Below, piece after piece: positions 48,105-59,703 of a DNA stretch of 64,000 nt. Positions within the stretch are counted from its first letter, which is position 1, and each line of letters opens with the position of its first letter. The notes under the pieces were generated by a model that was given only the letters and a program-made list of their open reading frames with translations, had not been told where the DNA came from and did not search any database. Source of the DNA: Chitinophaga niabensis (lineage in GTDB: Bacteria > Bacteroidota > Bacteroidia > Chitinophagales > Chitinophagaceae); contig NZ_CP154260.1 in NCBI RefSeq assembly GCF_039545795.1, positions 315,001 to 379,000 of the forward strand, read 5' to 3'. The translations under genes were made by a program, and so were the position numbers.

Positions 48105-51100
48105 ATGGCTGTAAACTATCTGTTGAGTACGGGATATTGTATGCCTGTAACTCACAGCTATTCCCGAATGTTACGCAAAGCCGCATCATGGCTTTCGGCA
48201 GGATGCATACTGCTCCTGATCTCCATACTCGCCCATGCGCAGGACCGCGCTGTTAAAGGAGTGGTAAATGGAGAAGATGGTAAACCCATGCCGGGTGTAA
48301 CCATTCTCCTGAAAGGAGGAGAGCGTCACGCTATTACGGATGAGAATGGCCGTTTTAGTATCAGTGCAGGTGCAGATGCCATCCTGGTTTTCACCTTTAC
48401 GGGGTACGAGAAAAAAGAAGTATCCGTAAATGGACAGGCGGAATTAACCGTTCAAATGGCACCTTCCGTTACAGCACTGGAAACAGTGGTAGTAACAGCA
48501 TTGGGTCTGGAGCGTAAGAAGAAAACGCTCACCTACAGTACACAGGGCGTTAGCGCCAAAGAACTTACAGAAGCAAGAGAGCTCAATATGGTGAATGCCC
48601 TGCAGGGTAAAGTGGCCGGTTTGAATATTAGTTCCGGTTCCAGCGGAGTAGGTTCTCAGGCAAGGGTGATCCTGCGCGGTAACAGATCTATCAGTGGTAA
48701 CAGCCAGCCTTTATATGTGATAGATGGAGTAGTTACCCGTGCCAGTCCTGCTGATATCAATACAGATAACATCGCTTCCCTGAACGTACTGAAAGGAGCA
48801 AACGCTGCTGCGTTATACGGCAGCGCAGGGCAGAACGGGGTGATCGTGATCGAAACAAAAAAAGGAAGACAAGGTGTGAATGTTAGCCTGAACTCCACTT
48901 ACATGGTGGAAACGCCCATTCATTCCACCCCTTATCAATATGAATACGGGCAGGGTGTTTCCGGTACTTTCCTGAAAACTTCAGAATCTTCCTGGGGTCC
49001 AAAAATGGATGGTCGTATGGTGGACACCTGGTCGCTGGATCCCGCGGATGCAGGTAAACAATACAGTTACCTGCCGGATAGAAAAGCCCGGGAGAATGTA
49101 TTCAATAACGGCAGCAACTTCGCCACCAATCTTTCTGTAAGCACCGGCACAGAAAAATCCAAAACCCTCTTCACTTATACCCATACCAGTGGAGACGGTG
49201 TATTGCCAGGCAACGAACTTTCCCGTCACAACGCGGCATTACGTGTTACTAATCAGCTCACTAAAAAACTAACACTGGATACCAAACTGGACTACATGAA
49301 GCAAAAGATCAGCAATCAACTGGATGAAGGAGAGTCTTCCTTTAATCCGCTCCGCCAGATCGCTACCATGCCTTCCAGCATCAGGGACCAGGAACTTACT
49401 CATTTTGAATATAAAGATCCCGTATTAGGCGTAATGAAGCAGAATTACTGGAGTGCGGGTACTGTTACAGGGGCTAACCCTTACTGGGCATTGTTGCGTA
49501 ATCTGCGCTATAATAAAGTGGATCGCCTGATGGGACTGGTTTCCCTTTCTTACCAGTTTACAGAAGAATTCCGTGTGATGGTGCGTGGATCTTTTGATGG
49601 AGAAAATAATTCATCGGAAGAAAAGTCTTATTACGGCACCTATCGCGATCCTTCCGGAAGATATGCTGTAGGGAAAGGTTCTGCCTTATTGCTGAATGGC
49701 GACTTCCTGCTGAGCTATAAAAAACAATTGAATAAAGACTGGTCGCTGGGCGTAAATGCTGGTGGTGAAATAAGGAATACTACGGGAGATTTATTGACTG
49801 CCAATACCGGAACCGGTATGAGCGTACCTAATTTCTTTGCATTATCAAATATCTCATTAGCTGCCGTTGCCGGTTACACACCAGTGGTGGAAATGGAAAC
49901 ACAGTCCCTGTATGCAAATGCACAAGTGGGGTGGAAAGATGCCATCTTCCTGGAATTAACGGGCAGGAACGATTGGAGTTCTACCTTAGCAGCAAATAAC
50001 CGTTCGTATTTTTATCCTTCGGCGGGTATCAGTGCAGTGCTGTCAGAACTGGTGAAGCTGCCGCAAGCCATCACTTACCTGAAACTGAGAGGTTCCCTGG
50101 CTCAAGTGGGTAACGGCGCTTCACCCGGACTGTTACAACGTTTTGCAGCCAGCGCCCCCGGCGGCAACCTGGGTTATTTATCACTCAGCTCTACTTTACC
50201 CAATAAAAACCTGAAACCGGAAATAACCCGTTCTACAGAAGCAGGTCTTGAGCTACGCCTGTTACATGATCGTATAAGCCTGGATGTTACAGCCTATCAG
50301 ACTAATACCAGTAACCAGATCTTCCTGCAGGCGTTACCTGTTGGGAGCGGCGCGTTGAGCTTATACACAAATGGCGGCGATGTAAGGAACAAAGGAATTG
50401 AAGTGATCCTGAACACCACGCCCATAAGATCCGGCAATTTCTCCTGGGACCTCAATTTCAATTTTGCCAAGAACGATAACGTAGTATTGGAACTTTCCGA
50501 TGCCATCCCTTCTTTAATAGTGGGTGGTGATACCTACATGCGGAATTTTGTACTGGAAGAAGGCCGCCCTTTCGGACAGATCTATGGAAAAGGATTTGTG
50601 CGTGACAGCAAAGGCCGCGTGCTCGTAGGTACAAATGGGCTCCCTCAGACCACACCAGGAAAAACTGTATTGCTGGGAAACGTAAACCCTGACTGGACGG
50701 GCGGTATTTCCACTTCCTTCGCTTATAAGAACTGGAGTGCAGGCATTGTGATCAGTCACAAACAGGGAGGAGATATTGCTTCTTTCACAGATGCCATCCT
50801 TTATGGAGAAGGTTTAACAGAAGCTACACTGCAAGGCAGGGATGGAGGTTTGTTATTTGGAAAGAACATCCTCACCCGATATGCTTCTGCCAAACCGGAT
50901 GGATCAGAAAATGATAAGACGGTGAATGCACAGCAGCTCTGGCAATTCCTGGGAGGAAGAACAGCACCGGTAGGAGAGATGTTCATGCGCAAAGCCACCA
51001 ATACCAGGTTACGTGAATTCACACTGGGATATCAGTTACCATCTTCTCTTTTTAACAGAGGGCCGCTGGCAGCTATTCAGGTATCCCTGGTAGGCAGGAA

Positions 51101-51242
51101 CCTTTTCTTCATCCACAGGGATGCAAGAGGCCTTGATCCTGATTACACACAAGGCACCGGCACTATTTCAGAAGGTTTCCAGTCGTTTGCCTTGCCGCCT
51201 TCCCGTTCATTTGGGGCCAACATTAAGATCAACTTTAAATAA
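48105..51242 (+). CDS. SusC/RagA-type TonB-dependent transporter (pair 2)
   Basis: The 1045-residue protein has a regulatory-like domain (VKGVVNGEDGKPMPGVTILL) and a plug region (ALETVVVTALGLERKKKTLT). The SusC signature LKGANAAALYGSAGQNGVIV and a large barrel ending FGANIKINFK follow. Signal-peptide features begin at MLRKAASW; starts at 48141 and 48168 are therefore possible, and the longer start is given because the operator leaves room for it. The plug differs strongly from pair 1 (TALGLERKKK rather than GYNTVRKKD), marking another SusC subclass. SusD follows after six bases. Confidence 0.94.
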   Translation: MAVNYLLSTGYCMPVTHSYSRMLRKAASWLSAGCILLLISILAHAQDRAVKGVVNGEDGKPMPGVTILLKGGERHAITDENGRFSISAGADAILVFTFTGYEKKEVSVNGQAELTVQMAPSVTALETVVVTALGLERKKKTLTYSTQGVSAKELTEARELNMVNALQGKVAGLNISSGSSGVGSQARVILRGNRSISGNSQPLYVIDGVVTRASPADINTDNIASLNVLKGANAAALYGSAGQNGVIVIETKKGRQGVNVSLNSTYMVETPIHSTPYQYEYGQGVSGTFLKTSESSWGPKMDGRMVDTWSLDPADAGKQYSYLPDRKARENVFNNGSNFATNLSVSTGTEKSKTLFTYTHTSGDGVLPGNELSRHNAALRVTNQLTKKLTLDTKLDYMKQKISNQLDEGESSFNPLRQIATMPSSIRDQELTHFEYKDPVLGVMKQNYWSAGTVTGANPYWALLRNLRYNKVDRLMGLVSLSYQFTEEFRVMVRGSFDGENNSSEEKSYYGTYRDPSGRYAVGKGSALLLNGDFLLSYKKQLNKDWSLGVNAGGEIRNTTGDLLTANTGTGMSVPNFFALSNISLAAVAGYTPVVEMETQSLYANAQVGWKDAIFLELTGRNDWSSTLAANNRSYFYPSAGISAVLSELVKLPQAITYLKLRGSLAQVGNGASPGLLQRFAASAPGGNLGYLSLSSTLPNKNLKPEITRSTEAGLELRLLHDRISLDVTAYQTNTSNQIFLQALPVGSGALSLYTNGGDVRNKGIEVILNTTPIRSGNFSWDLNFNFAKNDNVVLELSDAIPSLIVGGDTYMRNFVLEEGRPFGQIYGKGFVRDSKGRVLVGTNGLPQTTPGKTVLLGNVNPDWTGGISTSFAYKNWSAGIVISHKQGGDIASFTDAILYGEGLTEATLQGRDGGLLFGKNILTRYASAKPDGSENDKTVNAQQLWQFLGGRTAPVGEMFMRKATNTRLREFTLGYQLPSSLFNRGPLAAIQVSLVGRNLFFIHRDARGLDPDYTQGTGTISEGFQSFALPPSRSFGANIKINFK

Positions 51243-51248
51243 ATAAAG

Positions 51249-52829
51249 ATGAAAAAGCATTTTTCAATATACAGCCTGCTTTCCATGGGCATGCTGGTAA
51301 TGTTCAGCCAAAGCTGTACGAAGCGGTTCGATGCCATGAACACACCGGAAAACCTGTTGCCGGAGAATGAGATAACCGCTGCATTGATCGGGCAGTCATT
51401 TGCCTTTTCACAGTATCATGGATTATGTGCCGTGTATGTGGAAGTAGGGCAAACGCTGCATGCAGATATCTACGCGCAATACTTTGCCTCCGTGCCTGCG
51501 GCTTTCAGTACAGAACAGTTCATCCCTAACGGTTCCTGGGTAGATCTTTTCTGGAAGGATTTTTATGTGAATGCAGCACCGCAGTTGTTCCTCACAGAAA
51601 AAGTGACCAGGGAAAACAACATGAATGTAGCCAATGCCATCGCTAAAATATGGAGAGTAGTGATCTATAGCAGGATGACAGATTACTTCGGCCCTGTTAT
51701 CTATTCTCATTTCGGTGATCAGACCACCAGCGTGCCTTACGATGCACAGGAGGATATCTATGCTGATTTTTTCAAAACACTGGACGAAGCAACAGCCGTA
51801 TTAAAACAAAACCCCGGCGGCAACGGTTTCGGCGCACACGATCAGGTGTATGCCGGCAGTGCAGACAAATGGCTGAAACTCGCCAACTCCCTGCGGCTCC
51901 GTTTCGCGTTACGCATTGCCTATGCAGATGCGGCCAAAGCCAAAACAGAAGCAGAGAAGGCTATCACAGAAGGGGTGATCACAACCAATGCGGATAATGC
52001 CAATGTGCTCACCACCACTAACAGCGTGAATATCCTTTCACGTATTACTTACCTGATAGACTTCCGTGCCAGTACTTCCCTGATCAGCGCATTAAAAGGA
52101 TACAACGATCCAAGGTTACCGGATTATTTATCACCGGCGGTAACAGGTGGCCAGTTTACCGGCATCCGCAATGGTTTACCCGCTGCGGAAAGAGGAACAC
52201 AATTAGCGAATCTCAATTCTTTTGTGGGCACAAAATGGTTGTCGCCGGACAGGAAGGGAACGCTGACGCCAAACAGGGTACTTTCAGCTGCGGAGGTTGC
52301 TTTCTTACGCGCAGAAGGAGCTTTGAGAGGATGGAACATGGGTGGTACGCCAAAAGATCTGTATAACCAGGGGATCAGCCTTTCTCTTTCAGAACGGGTA
52401 GCTGCTACGCCTGGTCAGATCACAACTTACCAAACCAGCACTTCGTTACCAGCACCTGTGGCTGATAAATGGAACACACCATCCATGAGTGATATTCCTG
52501 TGTTATATGATGATGCCGGCACTTTTGAAAGAAGGCTGGAACAGATCATCACCCAGAAATGGCTGGCGCTGTATCCTGATGGATGGGAAGCATGGGCAGA
52601 ACGCAGAAGAACAGGTTATCCGAGAGGGTATGCACTCATTGCTTCAGAAAGCCCGGCTATCACCAGAACACAATTAGTAAGAAGGGTTACTTATCCGCCG
52701 GTGGAAATATCTACTAACAGAGCGGCATATGATGCAGCAGTTGGGATGTTGAAAGGAGCTGATGAAAACTTTACAAGAGTATGGTGGGATAAAAAGCCAT
52801 TGACTGATTACCCACTACCTACAAATTAA
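51249..52829 (+). CDS. SusD-like nutrient-binding lipoprotein (SusD-2/PF12771 type)
   Basis: The 526-residue lipoprotein (signal ending MFSQSC) belongs to the second SusD subclass: TKRFDAMNTPENLLPENEIT, a WKDFYVNAAPQL helix, NAIAKIWRVVIYSRMTDYFG, YAGSADKWLKLANSLRLRFA, and the C-terminal QIITQKWLALYPDGWEAWAE. It pairs with the SusC encoded six bases upstream. Two different SusC/D classes under one regulator suggest that two forms or parts of the substrate are taken up. Confidence 0.93.
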   Translation: MKKHFSIYSLLSMGMLVMFSQSCTKRFDAMNTPENLLPENEITAALIGQSFAFSQYHGLCAVYVEVGQTLHADIYAQYFASVPAAFSTEQFIPNGSWVDLFWKDFYVNAAPQLFLTEKVTRENNMNVANAIAKIWRVVIYSRMTDYFGPVIYSHFGDQTTSVPYDAQEDIYADFFKTLDEATAVLKQNPGGNGFGAHDQVYAGSADKWLKLANSLRLRFALRIAYADAAKAKTEAEKAITEGVITTNADNANVLTTTNSVNILSRITYLIDFRASTSLISALKGYNDPRLPDYLSPAVTGGQFTGIRNGLPAAERGTQLANLNSFVGTKWLSPDRKGTLTPNRVLSAAEVAFLRAEGALRGWNMGGTPKDLYNQGISLSLSERVAATPGQITTYQTSTSLPAPVADKWNTPSMSDIPVLYDDAGTFERRLEQIITQKWLALYPDGWEAWAERRRTGYPRGYALIASESPAITRTQLVRRVTYPPVEISTNRAAYDAAVGMLKGADENFTRVWWDKKPLTDYPLPTN

Positions 52830-52920: not shown

Positions 52921-52982
52921 CAACTGTCAAGGAATTCTTGATAGTTGGCTTTTTGCAACTACCGCGTTTTTCACGGTAGTTC
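52921..52982. terminator. two further stem-loops between convergent genes
   Basis: Arms 52921-52930/52938-52947 (one mismatch) are followed by TTTTT, a possible second plus-strand terminator. Arms 52957-52966/52972-52981 (one mismatch) end inside the stop of the minus-strand reductase gene. Confidence 0.55.
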
Positions 52983-53523
52983 ATTTCACCCTGTCATAAT
53001 TCAACGTCACCACTCCTGCCTTAGAAGACTTCACCTCATTCAATTGCAATCCCACTCTCTCCTGAATATTGCTAAACAACGGTTTCCCGGCTCCTAAAAT
53101 AACAGGGAACACCGCTAATCTGTAAATATCCACCAGCCCCTGGTTAATGAAGCTTGTGACCAATTGCCCGCCACCATACAACCAGATATCTTTCCCTGGC
53201 TGTTGTAAGATTTCGGGCACCTGGTCCATTGTAATGAAATTTGCTGTTTTCGTACGTGAGAAAACATACTTCTTCTTAGTATGGATAGTCCGATATAACT
53301 CCTGTATCATAGGAGGCGCCTGTTCTCCCGTCATGAAATTTCCCCAGAGATCATAACTGGTCCTTCCATAAAAAATAGTATCAATGCGGGAAAGGAGTTC
53401 TCCAAAGATGGAGTCAAATGTAGCATTGGGATCCTGACTGGCATATATCCAGTCAATTTCTCCATTAGGGCCTTCAATGAAGCCGTCCAGGGTTACAGCA
53501 AGGTCTAAGATGATCTTTCTCAT
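52981..53523 (-). CDS. dihydrofolate-reductase-family (RibD C-terminal) protein
   Basis: The 180-residue product starts at ATG 53523 (MRKIILDLAVTLDGFIEG). It has the RibD-C/DHFR fold: GEIDWIYASQD, FYGRTSYDLWGNF, DIWLYGGGQLVTSFI (dinucleotide-binding Gly run), and VFPVILGAGKPLF. Family members reduce pteridine- or pyrimidine-type rings with NADPH, but most paralogues have no known substrate. It lies 31 bases after the MNIO gene on the same strand and has its own -7-like TATATTTA upstream, so it may be co-transcribed or independent. Confidence 0.85.
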   Translation of the reverse strand: MRKIILDLAVTLDGFIEGPNGEIDWIYASQDPNATFDSIFGELLSRIDTIFYGRTSYDLWGNFMTGEQAPPMIQELYRTIHTKKKYVFSRTKTANFITMDQVPEILQQPGKDIWLYGGGQLVTSFINQGLVDIYRLAVFPVILGAGKPLFSNIQERVGLQLNEVKSSKAGVVTLNYDRVK

Positions 53524-53554
53524 GAGGGAGGCTATTATAGTAAATATAGCCAAT

Positions 53555-54667
53555 TTATTTCTTCCACTTCTGAGCTATCTTAATTGCCGTCTCTATCATG
53601 TAAGGCTCCCAATGCTCAATCTCCCAGTCGGATCGTGCAAGAGAAGAAGTTTGTAATGCGTTCATGGCATCTTCATAAGAAGTAGCAGATTCCAGGATAG
53701 AAGAAAGTTCCAGCTGTTGCCTGTAAAGGGTTTCATCTTCAACAGGATCCCCTGTGAGCAAAGGTAACAAAGGAGCAAAGCTCTGCTTGCCCGGAGCAGA
53801 AAAACGACCGGCGATACTTTCCATTTTCAGGAAGTCTTGATAGAATGCGGCTTTACTTTCATCAGATGATAAGCCGTTTCCCAATTGTTCCAGTACAATG
53901 TATTTGAGGTTAGGGCATCGTGTAATAGTATTTTCCAGAAGCTGAAAAACTTCTTCCGGAACAGCATCATCATGCGTATCCCGCCTGATCTGCCGGGGTG
54001 GATCAGCCAAAGAATCTTCCCAGCTGCCTCCTGAAATATGGATCTCTCTCACCATGTCTAGCGGATACAACGCAATGATATCATCAAAGGAAATATTGAA
54101 GTTGTGGATCTGGCAGTAGAGATTGTGCAGGTCCAGGATGATGAAACCATTTACAGGTGAAAGGAGTTGTTCTAAAAACTCGCCATGCCGTTTTACTTCA
54201 TCAAAAGAATAGGAGAAGGCAAGATTTTCTAATCCTACGGGACATCTACAAACATCATAGATCCTTTTCAGCCTGTCCCGGCCAATATTAAGTGTGCAGG
54301 AAGTATAAGGGATGTTTAAAGGAGCACCATGATGGAAATCTTTTCCTGTCATGAAACCAAAATGTTCCGTGATATGATCAAACTGGAACTCGGTACAGGT
54401 CTGTTTGAGTTGTTGCAGCCAGTTCTCCTGTTCTTTCAGCCATTTGCCGGAAAAGAGGGAGAAAAACACACCATGCCCGATCAGCCTTTTCTCATCGCTG
54501 AAGGCGGTTAATAATTCTATAAACCAGGATGGAACATCTTTTACTTTATACAATGCATCAAATGACCATTCCAGCGCTTCCACTCTTGATTCCTGCATTA
54601 ATGGAAGGCAGGCAGCAAGTATATCGTTGTCCAGGTTGCAGGCAACTGCTGATAATATTTTGGGCAC
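53555..54667 (-). CDS. DUF692/MNIO-family iron oxidase, probable RiPP maturase
   Basis: This 370-residue TIM-barrel protein shows the DUF692 (multinuclear non-heme iron oxidase) ligand pattern: His65 in IGHGVFFS, ITEHFGF (Glu101, His102), LENLAF (Glu147, Asn148), LDLHNLY (Asp179, His181), EIHISGG (His210), RDTHDD (Asp230, His232) and VLEQLG (Glu260). MbnB, TglH and ChrH of this family modify cysteines of precursor peptides. An extra C-terminal segment of about 80 residues might replace the separate partner protein these systems normally need. The gene 47 bases upstream encodes a small peptide ending in a Cys-Pro-Ala-Cys motif, its probable substrate. Confidence 0.87.
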   Translation of the reverse strand: MPKILSAVACNLDNDILAACLPLMQESRVEALEWSFDALYKVKDVPSWFIELLTAFSDEKRLIGHGVFFSLFSGKWLKEQENWLQQLKQTCTEFQFDHITEHFGFMTGKDFHHGAPLNIPYTSCTLNIGRDRLKRIYDVCRCPVGLENLAFSYSFDEVKRHGEFLEQLLSPVNGFIILDLHNLYCQIHNFNISFDDIIALYPLDMVREIHISGGSWEDSLADPPRQIRRDTHDDAVPEEVFQLLENTITRCPNLKYIVLEQLGNGLSSDESKAAFYQDFLKMESIAGRFSAPGKQSFAPLLPLLTGDPVEDETLYRQQLELSSILESATSYEDAMNALQTSSLARSDWEIEHWEPYMIETAIKIAQKWKK

Positions 54668-54714
54668 CCTTCCGATTTAAAAGATGATCAAATAACATGG
54701 TGTGTTCAGGGAGA

Positions 54715-54870
54715 TTAACCCATTCCGCAAGCAGGGCAGCCGTCAGGCAGTTTTTTCTCTTCCTTTTGCTTTTCCTTTGGATCGGGTGCTTTTTCTTTTT
54801 CACAGGATGTCATTGTGTGAACAGCAATGCCAATAAGAACAGCGCTAAGTAAAGTTTTGGGCAATTTCAT
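54715..54870 (-). CDS. lipoprotein-like small peptide, candidate RiPP precursor
   Basis: The 51-residue peptide starts at ATG 54870 (MKLPKTLLSAVLIGIAV), 18 codons inside the longest open frame. It has a signal peptide with a lipobox-like TMTSC (Cys23), a highly charged linker (EKEKAPDPKEKQKEEKK), and the C-terminus LPDGCPACGMG with Cys45 and Cys48. A short leader-like region ending in a small cysteine motif next to an MNIO gene is how precursors of this enzyme class are organised. If lipidated and exported, the product would be a surface- or periplasm-anchored modified Cys motif, perhaps for metal binding. It might instead be an ordinary small lipoprotein. Confidence 0.78.
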   Translation of the reverse strand: MKLPKTLLSAVLIGIAVHTMTSCEKEKAPDPKEKQKEEKKLPDGCPACGMG

Positions 54871-55056: not shown

Positions 55057-55851
55057 ATGAAACAGATCACGTTCGGCGTAATATTCCTGCTGGGCCTTTT
55101 ACAGGTCAGTTGCGATAAGGACAATAACGATCATTACGAAGCACCCCCCAAAGTAAAGGTCACCGTTTTTCAATCAGCGGGAGACAGTGCCACCATCATT
55201 ACACAGATCAACAACTTCCGCGCACTCATTGGCGATCCGGTAAATAATGCACCGGGAGCTACGGCAGGCAGAAGAGAAGTGAATTGGGATGGCGTGCCCC
55301 CTAATCTTACCAATAACGATCTTTTTCCGGCGGACTTCTTCAATCTCACTGATCCTGCAGGGGCAAACGGCCGTAAAAGAGGATTGGTATATACCGCTGC
55401 CAGTTTGCCTTTAAGATTGGATAGCACCAGCTTTGCACAGATAGATGCATCTTATGCGGATGAATTCATTCCCTTCAGCCAGAAGAAACTGATCATTTCT
55501 GTTAATTCAAACGTATCAGAGGTAGAATTTAAAGTAGCCGGCACCAACACCAGCGCCTTTGTGAAAGGTTTCGGGATCATTTTCTCTGATGTGGATGATG
55601 TTAATTCCACCTTCCTGGAATGCTTTAGCGGCAATACGAGCCTTGGGGTAGTGAAAGCCCCTGTTAAAAAAGCCGGGGCGGCATTCTCTTTCCTCGGTCT
55701 GTTTTTTCCGGATGCCCAGGTAACAAAAGTCAGGATAATTGCAGGTAATGCTAAACTGGCCACCGGGGTAAAAGACCTCAGCGATGGCGGTACAAAAGAC
55801 CTGGTAGCGTATGACGATTTCTTTTATAGTGAACCCATAGCGCTCCAATAA
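55057..55851 (+). CDS. secreted lipoprotein, unknown function
   Basis: The 264-residue lipoprotein (signal ending QVSC, Cys19) has an Asp/Asn-rich spacer (DKDNNDHYEAPP) and a beta-sandwich-like body: SATIITQINNFRALIGD, REVNWDGVPPNLTNNDLFP, FKVAGTNTSAFVKGFGIIF and a terminal YDDFFYSEP. It recalls secreted jelly-roll proteins that carry a conserved NWDG motif. No enzymatic residues stand out. It is divergent from the RiPP-like peptide gene and shares a region with several GGGGAT motifs. Confidence 0.75.
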   Translation: MKQITFGVIFLLGLLQVSCDKDNNDHYEAPPKVKVTVFQSAGDSATIITQINNFRALIGDPVNNAPGATAGRREVNWDGVPPNLTNNDLFPADFFNLTDPAGANGRKRGLVYTAASLPLRLDSTSFAQIDASYADEFIPFSQKKLIISVNSNVSEVEFKVAGTNTSAFVKGFGIIFSDVDDVNSTFLECFSGNTSLGVVKAPVKKAGAAFSFLGLFFPDAQVTKVRIIAGNAKLATGVKDLSDGGTKDLVAYDDFFYSEPIALQ

Positions 55852-55869
55852 AGCTAACCCCATAAGTTT

Positions 55870-55900
55870 GATCATCCCTCTCACCGGAGGGATGATCTTT
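55870..55900 (+). terminator. rho-independent terminator
   Basis: GATCATCCCTC (55870-55880) pairs perfectly with 55887-55897, followed by a short T-run. It ends the lipoprotein gene before the sensor kinase. Confidence 0.75.
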
Positions 55901-55903
55901 GCT

Positions 55904-55909
55904 ATCCCC
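55904..55909 (+). promoter_or_regulatory. ATCCCC motif upstream of sensor kinase
   Basis: The motif reads TATCCCCGAA and lies 64 bases before the chosen start. The same TATCCCCGAA string appears on the minus strand upstream of the hydrolase gene (hexamer at 59736-59741). Confidence 0.4.
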
Positions 55910-55972
55910 GAATCCGGTGATAACGTATTTAGGAGATTTTTGTACTTTTATACGTTATCTACAAACCCCGGC

Positions 55973-58900
55973 ATGTTCAGCAGGTTATTATACACCGCTC
56001 TTTTTCTTTATTATAGTGCATTCGTTCATGCGCAGCACCCCCAACTGATCTTCTCGCGGCTGACCGTGCAGAACGGCCTTTCTCATAATAAAGTGAATTG
56101 CATCCTCCAGGATAAAAGAGGATTTGTATGGCTGGGTACGGAAGACGGCCTGAACCGCTTCGATGGAAAATACTTTTCCCTTTTCAGGAACACACCGGGT
56201 AATACCGCTACCATCTCAAAAAATATCATTACCTCTCTGCTCGAAGATGAACAGGGCATCATATGGATCGCCTCTGCAGATGCAGGTCTTACAAGATATG
56301 ATCATCGCCTGCCCGCCGCGCAGCAATTCAAACAATACCGCCACAATCCGAAAGATTCCTCCTCCATCCCCATTAATATCATCAACGCAATTACAGCGGA
56401 TAAAGAAGGTTATCTCTGGCTGGCCACCGGCGGCAACAGGGTATTACGCTTCAATAAACAAACGGAGAAATTCGAAGCCCCTGTGAAGGAAGGCACCCGA
56501 AACGCATTGTCTCTTGTAATAGATAACAGCGATACATTATGGGTAGGCAGGCAGGGCGGGGGTATGTTGAAAGTGAATATTCACAACCTGAAATATAACA
56601 TGGACCATCGTTACAGCGATCTCTATGCAGATCTCCCGCATGCATCTGTCAGTTCACTGTATAAAGATAAACGGGGAAATATCTGGTTCGGTTCCTGGGA
56701 TAAGGTATTGTACCGCTTTAATAAAGAACAGCAACGGGAAGAAGCTTTTGCATCCCCGGCAGATGATATATTGTCTTTCGCAGAAGATACAGCCGGCCAT
56801 ATCTGGATGGGAGGGAAGAACAATGGTTTATTCATTTACGATCCGGAAAAGAACAGTTTCAGTAATCTCCGTTATGATCCTGCGCTGGAAGGTACCATAG
56901 CAGACGATCGCATTAACTGCATATACATAGGAAAAGATGGAATGGTTTGGCTGGGCACCAACCGAGGTGTTAGTATTTTCAACCCGTCACAGCAACCTTT
57001 TTCACAACAGTTCCTCGATAAAAACGGTAAAGACCTGCAGATCTACGATCTGCAAACCATAAACGGTAATCTCTGGGCTGGCACCAGCGATGGGCTGTAT
57101 ATCAGAACAAAAGGTAACACTGCATTCAGCCATATTCCATTACAATATAAAGGCCGTCCACTGGTGGTGTCAAAGATCTTCCGGGATGATGATGGTACGC
57201 TTTATCTGGGCACCAACTTTACCCTATTTATCTGCAATCCGGAAACCCTTACTTTATCGCTGCTACCGAATACAGAAAAAGATGAAGTGATCTATAACAT
57301 CATAGACTCCCGCATTATATCCATCATCAAAGACACCATTGCAGGGCATCCTGTATTGATCACGGTGCCTTATGGGCATTTTATTGCTTACTATGATTTT
57401 ATCACCCAACGCTGGACTTCCCGTGAAGACACTACCATCGACATCATCAAAAAATTCAATTTAGCAGATCACCTCATCAGGAAACTCTATAAAACTTCAA
57501 AAGGTAACATCTGGATGGCTACCGGAAAAATGGGTCTGGGAAAATGGAATATAAAGAACGCACTACCCTGGCTTACTTATTACAGCGGAGCTATCAACAA
57601 TAATATATACGATGTAGTGGAAGCTCCTACAGGAAAACTGTGGATCAGTACCTATGGCGGAGGTTTGAATCAGTTTGATCCCGTAACGGATTCTTTCACG
57701 CATATTACTACATCCAGCAACCTGCTGGAAGGATTACAACTGGATGGCTGGCAGAACGTATGGATGGTCAGCAACGGCAATCTCCATAAATATGATCCTT
57801 ACATCGCCAGTTATTCCACCTATCAGTTACCGGACCTGGAGAAGTCAGGTGGCGTAAGCGGAAGTGTATTCAAAGATGCGGACGGTCAGATGTATGTGGC
57901 CGGAAATAATTACATCGTTGCTTTCCGGCCGGAAAAGATAAAAGAGGAAAGAAAATATCCGAAAGTATTCTTTACGGACTTCCAGGTATTTAATGCTTCT
58001 TTCAGCGAACGGCTGAAAGAAAAAGAGATCAGGCTGCCCCACAATGAAAATTATTTCACCTTTACTTTTTCCGCCCCGGAATTTATGCAGCGTAATACCA
58101 CCTACGCTTATATGCTGGAAGGTTTCGATAAAGACTGGATAGAAGCTGGTGACCGTAACTATGCCAGCTATTCCAACCTGGATGGCGGTTATTACATCCT
58201 GAAAGTAAAAGCCAGCAGCAGCAAAGGCAACTGGGGAAATGAGTTCACCGCCATCCGCATAAGGATTATACCCCCCTTCTGGAAAGCCTGGTGGTTTTTC
58301 CTGCTCTGTGCCGCCGTGATTGCCACAGCCACTTATGCTGTGTACCGTTACCGCATCAATGAACTGCTGGACAGGCAAGCTATCCGGAACAAGATTGCGC
58401 AGGACCTCCATGATAATGTGGGTTCCACCCTCAGCAGCATCGGCGTATACAGCGAAGTGGCACAGATCTATCTGCAACAGCAAAAACACAACGATCTGCG
58501 AAGTACATTGGAAAAGATCCGGGATGCCTGCGGTGAAATGATCAGTGAACTGAGTGATACCGTATGGACCATCAACCCGCGTAACGATCATATGAGCACC
58601 ATCCTGCAAAGGATGGACTCCTTTGCTCGCCCATTGCTCAAGGCACAGGGTGTTAACTTCCACCTGAACTTCGATATAGATATCACGGAACTGAACCTGG
58701 AAATGACGAAGCGGAAGAACTTTTACCTCATCTTCAAAGAAGCAGTTAGCAATGCTTACAAATATGCCCAGTGCCGGAATCTCTGGGTGGAAGTAAAGGA
58801 GGGACCACATATGTTGCAACTCATAGTAAAGGACGATGGAAAAGGCTTTGATGCCAAAACGGTTAAGTCTGCCAATACCCTTTCCGGTAACGGGTTGCAG

Positions 58901-58999
58901 AACATGCAGCGCAGGGCAAAGGAAATGAGAGGGGAATGTGTGATCAATAGCGTTCCGGGGGAGGGTACTACCCTTACTTTGAGGTTCCCTATCCCCTGA
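55973..58999 (+). CDS. two-component sensor histidine kinase with periplasmic propellers
   Basis: The start used is ATG 55973, giving a 1008-residue protein with a clean signal (MFSRLLYTALFLYYSAFVHA). Two seven-bladed reg_prop propellers (about 25-690; blades such as GFVWLGTEDGLNRFDGKYF) and a Y_Y_Y domain (about 700-765) follow. One membrane helix lies near 770-792, then a HisKA_3 helix with phospho-acceptor His813 in QDLHDNVGSTLSSI and an ATPase domain with DDGKGFD. Unlike glycan hybrid kinases it has no receiver or DNA-binding domain. The NarL-type regulator encoded 56 bases downstream is its partner. The ligand is unknown. Confidence 0.93.
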   Translation: MFSRLLYTALFLYYSAFVHAQHPQLIFSRLTVQNGLSHNKVNCILQDKRGFVWLGTEDGLNRFDGKYFSLFRNTPGNTATISKNIITSLLEDEQGIIWIASADAGLTRYDHRLPAAQQFKQYRHNPKDSSSIPINIINAITADKEGYLWLATGGNRVLRFNKQTEKFEAPVKEGTRNALSLVIDNSDTLWVGRQGGGMLKVNIHNLKYNMDHRYSDLYADLPHASVSSLYKDKRGNIWFGSWDKVLYRFNKEQQREEAFASPADDILSFAEDTAGHIWMGGKNNGLFIYDPEKNSFSNLRYDPALEGTIADDRINCIYIGKDGMVWLGTNRGVSIFNPSQQPFSQQFLDKNGKDLQIYDLQTINGNLWAGTSDGLYIRTKGNTAFSHIPLQYKGRPLVVSKIFRDDDGTLYLGTNFTLFICNPETLTLSLLPNTEKDEVIYNIIDSRIISIIKDTIAGHPVLITVPYGHFIAYYDFITQRWTSREDTTIDIIKKFNLADHLIRKLYKTSKGNIWMATGKMGLGKWNIKNALPWLTYYSGAINNNIYDVVEAPTGKLWISTYGGGLNQFDPVTDSFTHITTSSNLLEGLQLDGWQNVWMVSNGNLHKYDPYIASYSTYQLPDLEKSGGVSGSVFKDADGQMYVAGNNYIVAFRPEKIKEERKYPKVFFTDFQVFNASFSERLKEKEIRLPHNENYFTFTFSAPEFMQRNTTYAYMLEGFDKDWIEAGDRNYASYSNLDGGYYILKVKASSSKGNWGNEFTAIRIRIIPPFWKAWWFFLLCAAVIATATYAVYRYRINELLDRQAIRNKIAQDLHDNVGSTLSSIGVYSEVAQIYLQQQKHNDLRSTLEKIRDACGEMISELSDTVWTINPRNDHMSTILQRMDSFARPLLKAQGVNFHLNFDIDITELNLEMTKRKNFYLIFKEAVSNAYKYAQCRNLWVEVKEGPHMLQLIVKDDGKGFDAKTVKSANTLSGNGLQNMQRRAKEMRGECVINSVPGEGTTLTLRFPIP

Positions 59000-59008
59000 T
59001 TTGGGGAT
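58991..59008. promoter_or_regulatory. ATCCCC-N6-GGGGAT palindrome upstream of response regulator
   Basis: ATCCCCTGATTTGGGGAT is a perfect inverted repeat. It begins in the last codons of the kinase gene and lies 47 bases before the regulator start, which suggests autoregulation. Confidence 0.5.
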
Positions 59009-59055
59009 GTTATTTTGATAATTTTAACTGAACTTTATATAAACAGATTTGTCCC

Positions 59056-59703
59056 ATGAGCCTAAGGATTGCCATATTCGATGATAATAAGAACATCCGT
59101 GAAAGTATCAGTATGCTGCTTTCCACCGTTCCCCAGTTTGAAGTGGTCGGCTCCTTTTCTCATGTGCTGGATTGTGTGGCAGATGTAAAGGAATGTAAGC
59201 CCGATATCATCCTCATGGATATTGAAATGCCTGGTATGACGGGCATAGAAGCAGTGGTAAAGATCAAAAAGGAATTTCCGCAGATCCAGATCCTGATGCA
59301 AACTGTTTTTGAAGATGATGATCGTGTATTTGATTCTATCTGTAGCGGGGCATCCGGCTATATCCTCAAAAATTTCCTGCATACCAAATTGCTGGATTCA
59401 ATACAGGAGTTACAATATGGCGGTTCTCCCATGAGCCCTTCCATTGCCAGGAAAGTGCTCAATAAAATGCAGACGGTAGCCACGCATATTCGTCCGGAAG
59501 AAAAGGTAGATTACCAGTTGACACCCCGCGAGAAAGAAGTACTGGCTGCCCTCGTAAATGGACTCAGTTATAAAATGATTGCCGCAGACCTTTCTATCAG
59601 CTATGAAACCGTTCGCTCTCACGTAAAAAAGATCTATGAAAAACTCCATGTTGCCTCACTCACGGAAGTAGTGGCCAAAGCCATCAACAACCGCATCGTA
59701 TAA
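59056..59703 (+). CDS. NarL/FixJ-type response regulator
   Basis: The 215-residue protein has a receiver domain with phospho-acceptor Asp55 (ILMDIEMPG), an acidic pair (FDDN), a Thr/Lys switch region (QTVF and GYILKNF), and a C-terminal LuxR-type HTH (LTPREKEVLAALVNGLSYKM, then YETVRSHVKKIYEKLHV). It is the partner of the preceding kinase. The palindrome at 58991-59008 and related hexamers near neighbouring genes are its possible binding sites. Confidence 0.94.
   Translation: MSLRIAIFDDNKNIRESISMLLSTVPQFEVVGSFSHVLDCVADVKECKPDIILMDIEMPGMTGIEAVVKIKKEFPQIQILMQTVFEDDDRVFDSICSGASGYILKNFLHTKLLDSIQELQYGGSPMSPSIARKVLNKMQTVATHIRPEEKVDYQLTPREKEVLAALVNGLSYKMIAADLSISYETVRSHVKKIYEKLHVASLTEVVAKAINNRIV

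Follow-up and report, generated by a model that had tools for sequence, protein, structure and literature searches.

Two characterized systems stand closest to the gene pair described here. A 2025 preprint (PMC12636315) introduces "DAG-RiPPs" through DybA/DybH of Dyadobacter crusticola and ChsA/ChsH of Chitinophaga sancti, and presents such an arrangement, with Chitinophaga named, as the ChrH subfamily's main branch beyond Chryseobacterium. As reported there, neither DybH nor ChsH needs a partner protein to form a −4 Da product; the ChsH product is unmethylated, and the DybA product was resolved by NMR as a macrocycle plus a hydantoin, with one thiol closing the ring and the other free. The sequence CPACGMG alone, placed on GFP, suffices for modification. 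DybA is triacylated in E. coli, and the lipidated DybA obtained from E. coli is partly unmodified (Fig. 5f legend of the preprint). This kind of pair is therefore already published, and NCBIfam already names the precursor family.

More distant systems share parts of this design. Chryseobasin of Chryseobacterium (ChrA/ChrH; PMC10214503) has the same CPACGMG motif, and its maturase gives its name to the profile that our enzyme matches over its full length; ChrA, unlike the peptide studied here, is longer and has no lipobox cysteine, and the cluster adds ChrI, ChrE and ChrP and yields an S-methylated product (PMC10214503, PMC12636315). MelA1/MelH/MelHc of Melainabacteria has the same tail and enzyme core but a 34-kDa substrate, and its C-terminal domain is a separate, required protein (PMC12636315). 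In bufferins, oxazolins and methanobactin (BufBC, HvfBC, MbnBC), a PF05114 MNIO likewise acts on cysteines of a small precursor; these systems differ in that the partner is a protein of its own, in their motifs and products, and in a role with copper (PMC12636315, PMC12452194).

Here, we analyzed a window of 64,000 nucleotides from Chitinophaga niabensis (contig NZ_CP154260.1, positions 315,001 to 379,000), all coordinates below being those of the window. We put the probability at roughly nine in ten that the pair it carries is a DybA/DybH-type (ChrH-subfamily) RiPP-lipoprotein pair with a ringed, lipid-anchored product, the chemistry being argued by analogy. Judged by the published description, it does not differ in kind from DybA/DybH and ChsA/ChsH: it shares with them the lipoprotein signal with a third cysteine in the lipobox, the CPACGMG-type tail, the precursor upstream of the MNIO, the fused C-terminal helical domain and the minimal two-gene cluster without a partner gene. 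The first-pass annotation had presented the pair as a new RiPP, which does not hold, since the family has been published and biochemically characterized, a Chitinophaga member included (PMC12636315). The present analysis shows that this published family of RiPP-lipoproteins reaches the Chitinophaga niabensis genome and that it recurs as a strict two-gene unit.

Results

A short lipoprotein-type precursor precedes the MNIO gene

The precursor gene, of the DybA/ChsA type by NCBIfam model NF050125 and a 24-row alignment, lies on the minus strand at 54715..54870 and encodes 51 amino acids followed by a stop codon. The peptide has a basic start, a hydrophobic signal, an MTSC lipobox (Cys23; called by eye and by pattern), a charged linker and a DGCPACGMG tail containing Cys45 and Cys48. 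The lipoprotein signal peptide up to Cys23, MKLPKTLLSAVLIGIAVHTMTSC (54802..54870, minus strand), is conserved across genera, and the C-terminal CPACGMG core (54718..54738, minus strand) is the site at which a macrocycle and hydantoin are predicted, from the alignment and from homology to DybA and ChsA. A spacer of 47 bases (54668..54714) separates the peptide stop from the MNIO start on the same strand. Coordinates and translation thus agree with the first-pass description of a 51-residue signal, lipobox and linker peptide ending in GCPACGMG, 47 bases before a DUF692-type gene.

The peptide scored 81.3 bits against NF050125 ("chryseobasin-related MNIO class RiPP peptide"), whose cut-off is 40, and it carries both marks of DAG-RiPP/NF050125 precursors, the C-terminal CPxCGxG, here CPACGMG, and, by pattern reading, a signal with a lipobox cysteine. 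Among 24 aligned peptides, C45, C48, G49, M50 and G51 were invariant, as was Cys23, and P46 and A47 were kept in at least 90%; the conservation of the two tail cysteines, on which the first-pass annotation had staked its proposal, is therefore complete in this alignment. The window peptide has neither an EGKCG nor a multi-cysteine pattern.

The MNIO is of the ChrH/DybH subfamily and carries a fused helical domain

The MNIO gene (53555..54667, minus strand) starts with GTG at 54667, ends with a stop codon at 53557-53555 and encodes 370 amino acids; its placement in the ChrH/DybH subfamily rests on PF05114, NF050165 and the alignment. PF05114 covered residues 52-260 (E 3.1e-31; Pfam scan). The ChrH model NF050165 covered residues 8-369 and therefore takes in the C-terminal extension; the score of 401.3 bits is below the equivalog cut-off of 600, so the enzyme is not a strict ChrH orthologue. 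NF050167, NF003818 and TIGR04159 were not reached either, with 91.4 of 310, 73.6 of 360 and 19.7 of 325 bits, and because these scores are far under the cut-offs the enzyme fails the models for the bufferin, oxazolin and methanobactin maturases (BufB, HvfB, MbnB).

An AlphaFold2 model computed from a 21-row alignment had a mean pLDDT of 87.7 and a pTM of 0.89. It shows eight barrel strands (domain of residues ~1-290; 53798..54667, minus strand), which we read as a TIM barrel from the strand order and the family, then a variable linker and a C-terminal domain (residues ~296-370; 53558..53782, minus strand) with helices at 312-326, 331-340 and 355-369. In the 21 aligned orthologues, H65, H98, E101, H102, E147, D179, H181, H210, H232, D233 and E260 were invariant, in line with the His/Glu/Asp pattern noticed at first pass, and they sit at or near strand ends; a metal site with ligands among them is predicted from this conservation. 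Sequence matches in the PDB were 8hci and 3bww, and seven of the invariant residues align with an identical residue in chain 8hci ("DUF692 family protein"), which we take to be TglH.

The extra C-terminal residues that had been noticed at first pass form the three helices after the linker. The helical block was modelled with a pLDDT of 79-93 over residues 311-370, and the alignment shows invariant residues in this domain (Q317 Q318 E320 L321, S341 S342 L343, W348, W353, K367 W368). A barrel followed by a C-terminal helical bundle is given as the build of the ChrH subfamily (PMC12636315), and the extra bundle of ~7.8 kDa by which the subfamily is recognized corresponds in the model to the helices within 312-369.

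Precursor and enzyme occur together in relatives

We searched 79 chosen relatives, the own genome counted in. Some MNIO match was present in 39 of the 79, and a full-length ChrH-type enzyme in 21 (the own genome, 19 more of the genus and one of the order); the other 18 had only distant MNIO matches, with 20-30% identity. A C-x-x-C-G-M-G peptide lay upstream of the ChrH-type enzyme in 21 of 21 genomes, as a tandem pair in three. None of the 58 genomes lacking such an enzyme gave a full-length match to the peptide profile, five having weak partial matches. Since full-length peptide matches fall only in the 21 enzyme-bearing genomes of the 79, the pairing goes beyond chance.

A second set consisted of named Bacteroidota loci, the best 80 of 233 relatives and hence the closest ones, from Chitinophaga, Hymenobacter, Pontibacter, Taibaiella, Dyadobacter, Fluviicola, Saprospiraceae and others. 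Among these best 80 of 233, 79 had the peptide at most 900 bases upstream of the MNIO (78 found by script, plus L113, whose tail reads CPACSMG), and the peptide thus stands beside MNIO homologues as the earlier proposal required. At the remaining locus, L133 from a Chitinophagales MAG, no recognizable precursor was present within 900 bases upstream of the ChrH-type MNIO. Two or more peptides occurred in 10 of the 79 peptide-bearing loci, and 89 peptides were counted in all, one of the 90 matches (CYLCCGLYS at L151) being spurious.

A search with the pattern C-P-x-C-G-x-G-stop returned 40 matches, spread over 29 of the 79 genomes, against 10 for a reversed control pattern. Twenty-three read CPxCGMG, every one at a precursor gene, and the other 17 differed from CPxCGMG. 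Further CPxCGMG-tailed substrates in trans were accordingly rejected for these genomes, with a pattern that is blind to variants such as CIACGMG (G018). An extra match in the own genome, at C1:1862430, was discarded as a precursor, its open stretch being only 13 codons long.

The pair is the only constant element of its neighbourhood

Within 21 neighbourhoods of 9–13 kb, in which families were built from ORFs of at least 90 amino acids, no family besides the pair was constant, the next commonest being found in 9. The neighbourhood table omits the MNIO of L047, which lies under a longer ORF on the opposite strand, and the peptide of L042, whose ORF was extended beyond the length limit; both are present by the genome searches above. 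A Pfam scan of seven neighbouring proteins in the window returned no metal-handling family, no MNIO partner family and no DUF1772, epimerase or M42 peptidase, in agreement with the first-pass view that the system comprises two genes, with no partner gene next to them.

On the strand of the pair, directly downstream of it (52981-53526), lies a reductase with a RibD C-terminal domain, which has a homologue by the pair in one other of the 21 neighbourhoods, and SusC-like and SusD-like genes are found near the pair at 48105-52829. On the other side, a 264-amino-acid lipoprotein-like protein without a Pfam match (55057-55851) is divergent from the peptide gene, and a Reg_prop/Y_Y_Y histidine kinase and, after it, a LuxR-type response regulator occupy 55868-59703.

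The precursor signal is well kept between genera

Signal conservation within the genus is not telling, because at that range the signals of BamD and of GldJ-like proteins closely resemble one another too; we therefore compared sequences across genera. Residues 1-16 of the precursor, taken at the best of small offsets, were 56% identical, against 29% for BamD signals (153 pairs from 18 genomes; precursor higher in 144 pairs and lower in 3), and 63% identical against 31% for GldJ-like signals (55 pairs from 11 genomes; 51 higher and 3 lower), although such pair counts overstate significance, as does the shuffle control described below, because related sequences are not independent. In the same pairs, the matched domains were 42% identical for BamD, with 62% for the MNIO, and 56% for the GldJ-like protein, with 61% for the MNIO. 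The latter control is at a similar divergence, so the GldJ-like signal is kept far less than that of the precursor. These controls were taken without the L109 genome; at the thresholds used, 1 of 22 genomes had no BamD match and 11 of 22 had no GldJ-like match, a GldJ-like match over the family cut-off was found in only 1 of 22, and lipobox parsing kept 18 of 22 BamD loci and 11 of 12 GldJ-like ones, among which the parse of G095 looks wrong.

Between genera (243 pairs, 23 peptides), residues 2-16 of the precursor were 54% identical and the enzyme 61%, and the precursor linker varied where the signal was kept; Ala10 was invariant and Gly14 present in 20 of the 23 peptides. Where two sequences share an amino acid with four-fold codons, the third base differed in 67% of cases in the signal and 69% in the tail, near the saturation value of 74%, so recent transfer is not the cause of the conservation. 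The preprint describes relaxed N-terminal selection across the subfamily (PMC12636315); the sequences of the lipoprotein branch differ from this in their N-terminal conservation.

Residues after the lipobox resemble a surface-export signal

In Capnocytophaga, C-x-K-(D/E)2 is the optimal export signal (PMC5080379). Of the 89 peptides, 87 could be parsed, and 17 of these had the strict form, against a mean of 0.7 and a maximum of 5 in 1000 linker shuffles; Asp or Glu at either place after C-x-K was found in 44 of the 87 (shuffles: mean 6.1, maximum 14). The window peptide, with CEKEK, has the loose form only. Among SusD proteins of the own genome (22 of 30 loci parsed), Lys stood at the same place in 18, the strict form was seen in none and the loose form in 9, which counts against the surface-signal reading; the genus may therefore use a different form of the export signal. 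The loose form, read by eye, occurred in 0 of 18 BamD and 1 of 11 GldJ-like proteins. The C-x-K-(D/E) start of half the parsed peptides resembles a surface-export signal of Bacteroidota, and from it surface display of the peptide is predicted. The main text of PMC12636315, as available, does not contain the words "surface" or "export signal", and, on our reading of it, both the signal conservation and the C-x-K start go beyond that preprint. Together, the conserved signal and the export-signal-like start are two testable leads on the destination of the peptide and on how modification stays ahead of export.

Discussion

If the pair works as its published relatives do, the MNIO would bind the C-terminal CPACGMG tail in the cytoplasm, the fused helical domain seemingly standing in for a separate partner. 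A four-electron oxidation would then close a macrocycle between Cys45 and the former Cys48, and the backbone after the ring would rearrange to a hydantoin, for a change of −4 Da with no S-methylation. Export would come next, with Cys23 diacylglycerylated, the signal removed and the N-terminus acylated to leave a lipid-anchored peptide. We infer by this analogy that the window MNIO makes the same product. The matches to NF050125 and NF050165, the modelled fold, the co-occurrence, the confinement of CPxCGMG to precursors and the published results on ChsA/ChsH and DybA (PMC12636315) argue for a pair of the same kind; the sub-cut-off NF050165 score, L133 without a precursor and the partly unmodified lipidated DybA argue against it. 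The first-pass interpretation accordingly keeps its core, in that the pair very probably makes a membrane-anchored modified C-x-x-C peptide in a two-gene system with a fused extension, and loses its claim to novelty; its suggestion of metal handling goes unsupported.

The shared CPACGMG motif and the full-length match to the ChrH model would also fit the +10 Da product of Chryseobacterium ChrH, S-methylated chryseobasin, and the Archangium pair ArlAH is reported to yield a mixture of both products (PMC12636315). The NF050165 score well under the equivalog cut-off, the absence of DUF1772, epimerase and M42 peptidase from the seven scanned neighbours and the unmethylated product of Chitinophaga ChsH (PMC12636315) make a methylated product very improbable. 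We give equally little credence to a membrane-held peptide binding copper or another metal in the manner of bufferins, oxazolins and methanobactin. That the enzyme is an MNIO, and that lipidation is known or predicted for some bufferins and oxazolins (PMC12636315), speak for it; against it stand the low BufB, HvfB and MbnB scores, the lack of an EGKCG or multi-cysteine pattern, the recurrence of the pair alone across all 21 neighbourhoods, and a DybA product that does not absorb as methanobactin- or bufferin-type groups would (PMC12636315). Neither the family scores nor the seven scanned neighbours nor the recurring neighbours therefore support the suggestion that the pair possibly serves metal handling; in DybA, moreover, one thiol is taken up by the ring, and the authors of PMC12636315 describe the function as unclear.

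A link to the adjacent SusCD system, in which the modified lipopeptide would be a ligand for, or guard of, a SusC/SusD importer, is suggested by the genes at its side and by the frequent SusCD co-occurrence reported for the family (PMC12636315). The own genome, however, holds 145 SusD_RagB matches above the cut-off across 7.2 Mb, so that one nearby is often to be expected, and 56 scored SusC matches of 246 candidates; in a genome so rich in both, nearness is weak evidence and was set aside. The SusC-like family occurs in 9 of the 21 neighbourhoods, 5 of them from one syntenic group, and we regard the link as unlikely.

For the DybA/DybH-type product, we infer an outer-membrane location, perhaps with an outward orientation, and our best guess at its role is a displayed thiol-bearing binding tail rather than metal storage. 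Literature on DAG-RiPP, DybH and CPACGMG, judged from titles and the openings of abstracts, yielded no functional study of these peptides. More tentatively, and with the odds against it, the signal could act as a second recognition element, keeping the precursor with the MNIO, for example via the C-terminal helices, until ring closure; alternatively, once cleaved, it could itself be a messenger. The ringed lipopeptide could then be flipped to the surface via C-x-K-(D/E).

The layout of the pair varies. Two or three precursors in tandem, mostly with different linkers, precede one MNIO at L010, L012 and L014 and at L101, L108, L117, L127, L134, L138, L139, L143, L156 and L159, some of these genomes being shared with the former three; at L127, one of three precursors ends in CPPCGRG and has no clear lipobox. 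At L008 (G046; 1196-1384 and 2519-2814), the peptide stands ~356 bases ahead of the MNIO with a 52-base tandem array (3.7 copies) in the gap, and a 91-base array (3.3 copies) repeats the final MNIO codons and runs past the gene end. Inside the MNIO gene of L020 (G014), a 54-base tandem array of 2.8 copies (2335-2485) lengthens the linker between the barrel and the C-terminal domain and leaves the frame intact.
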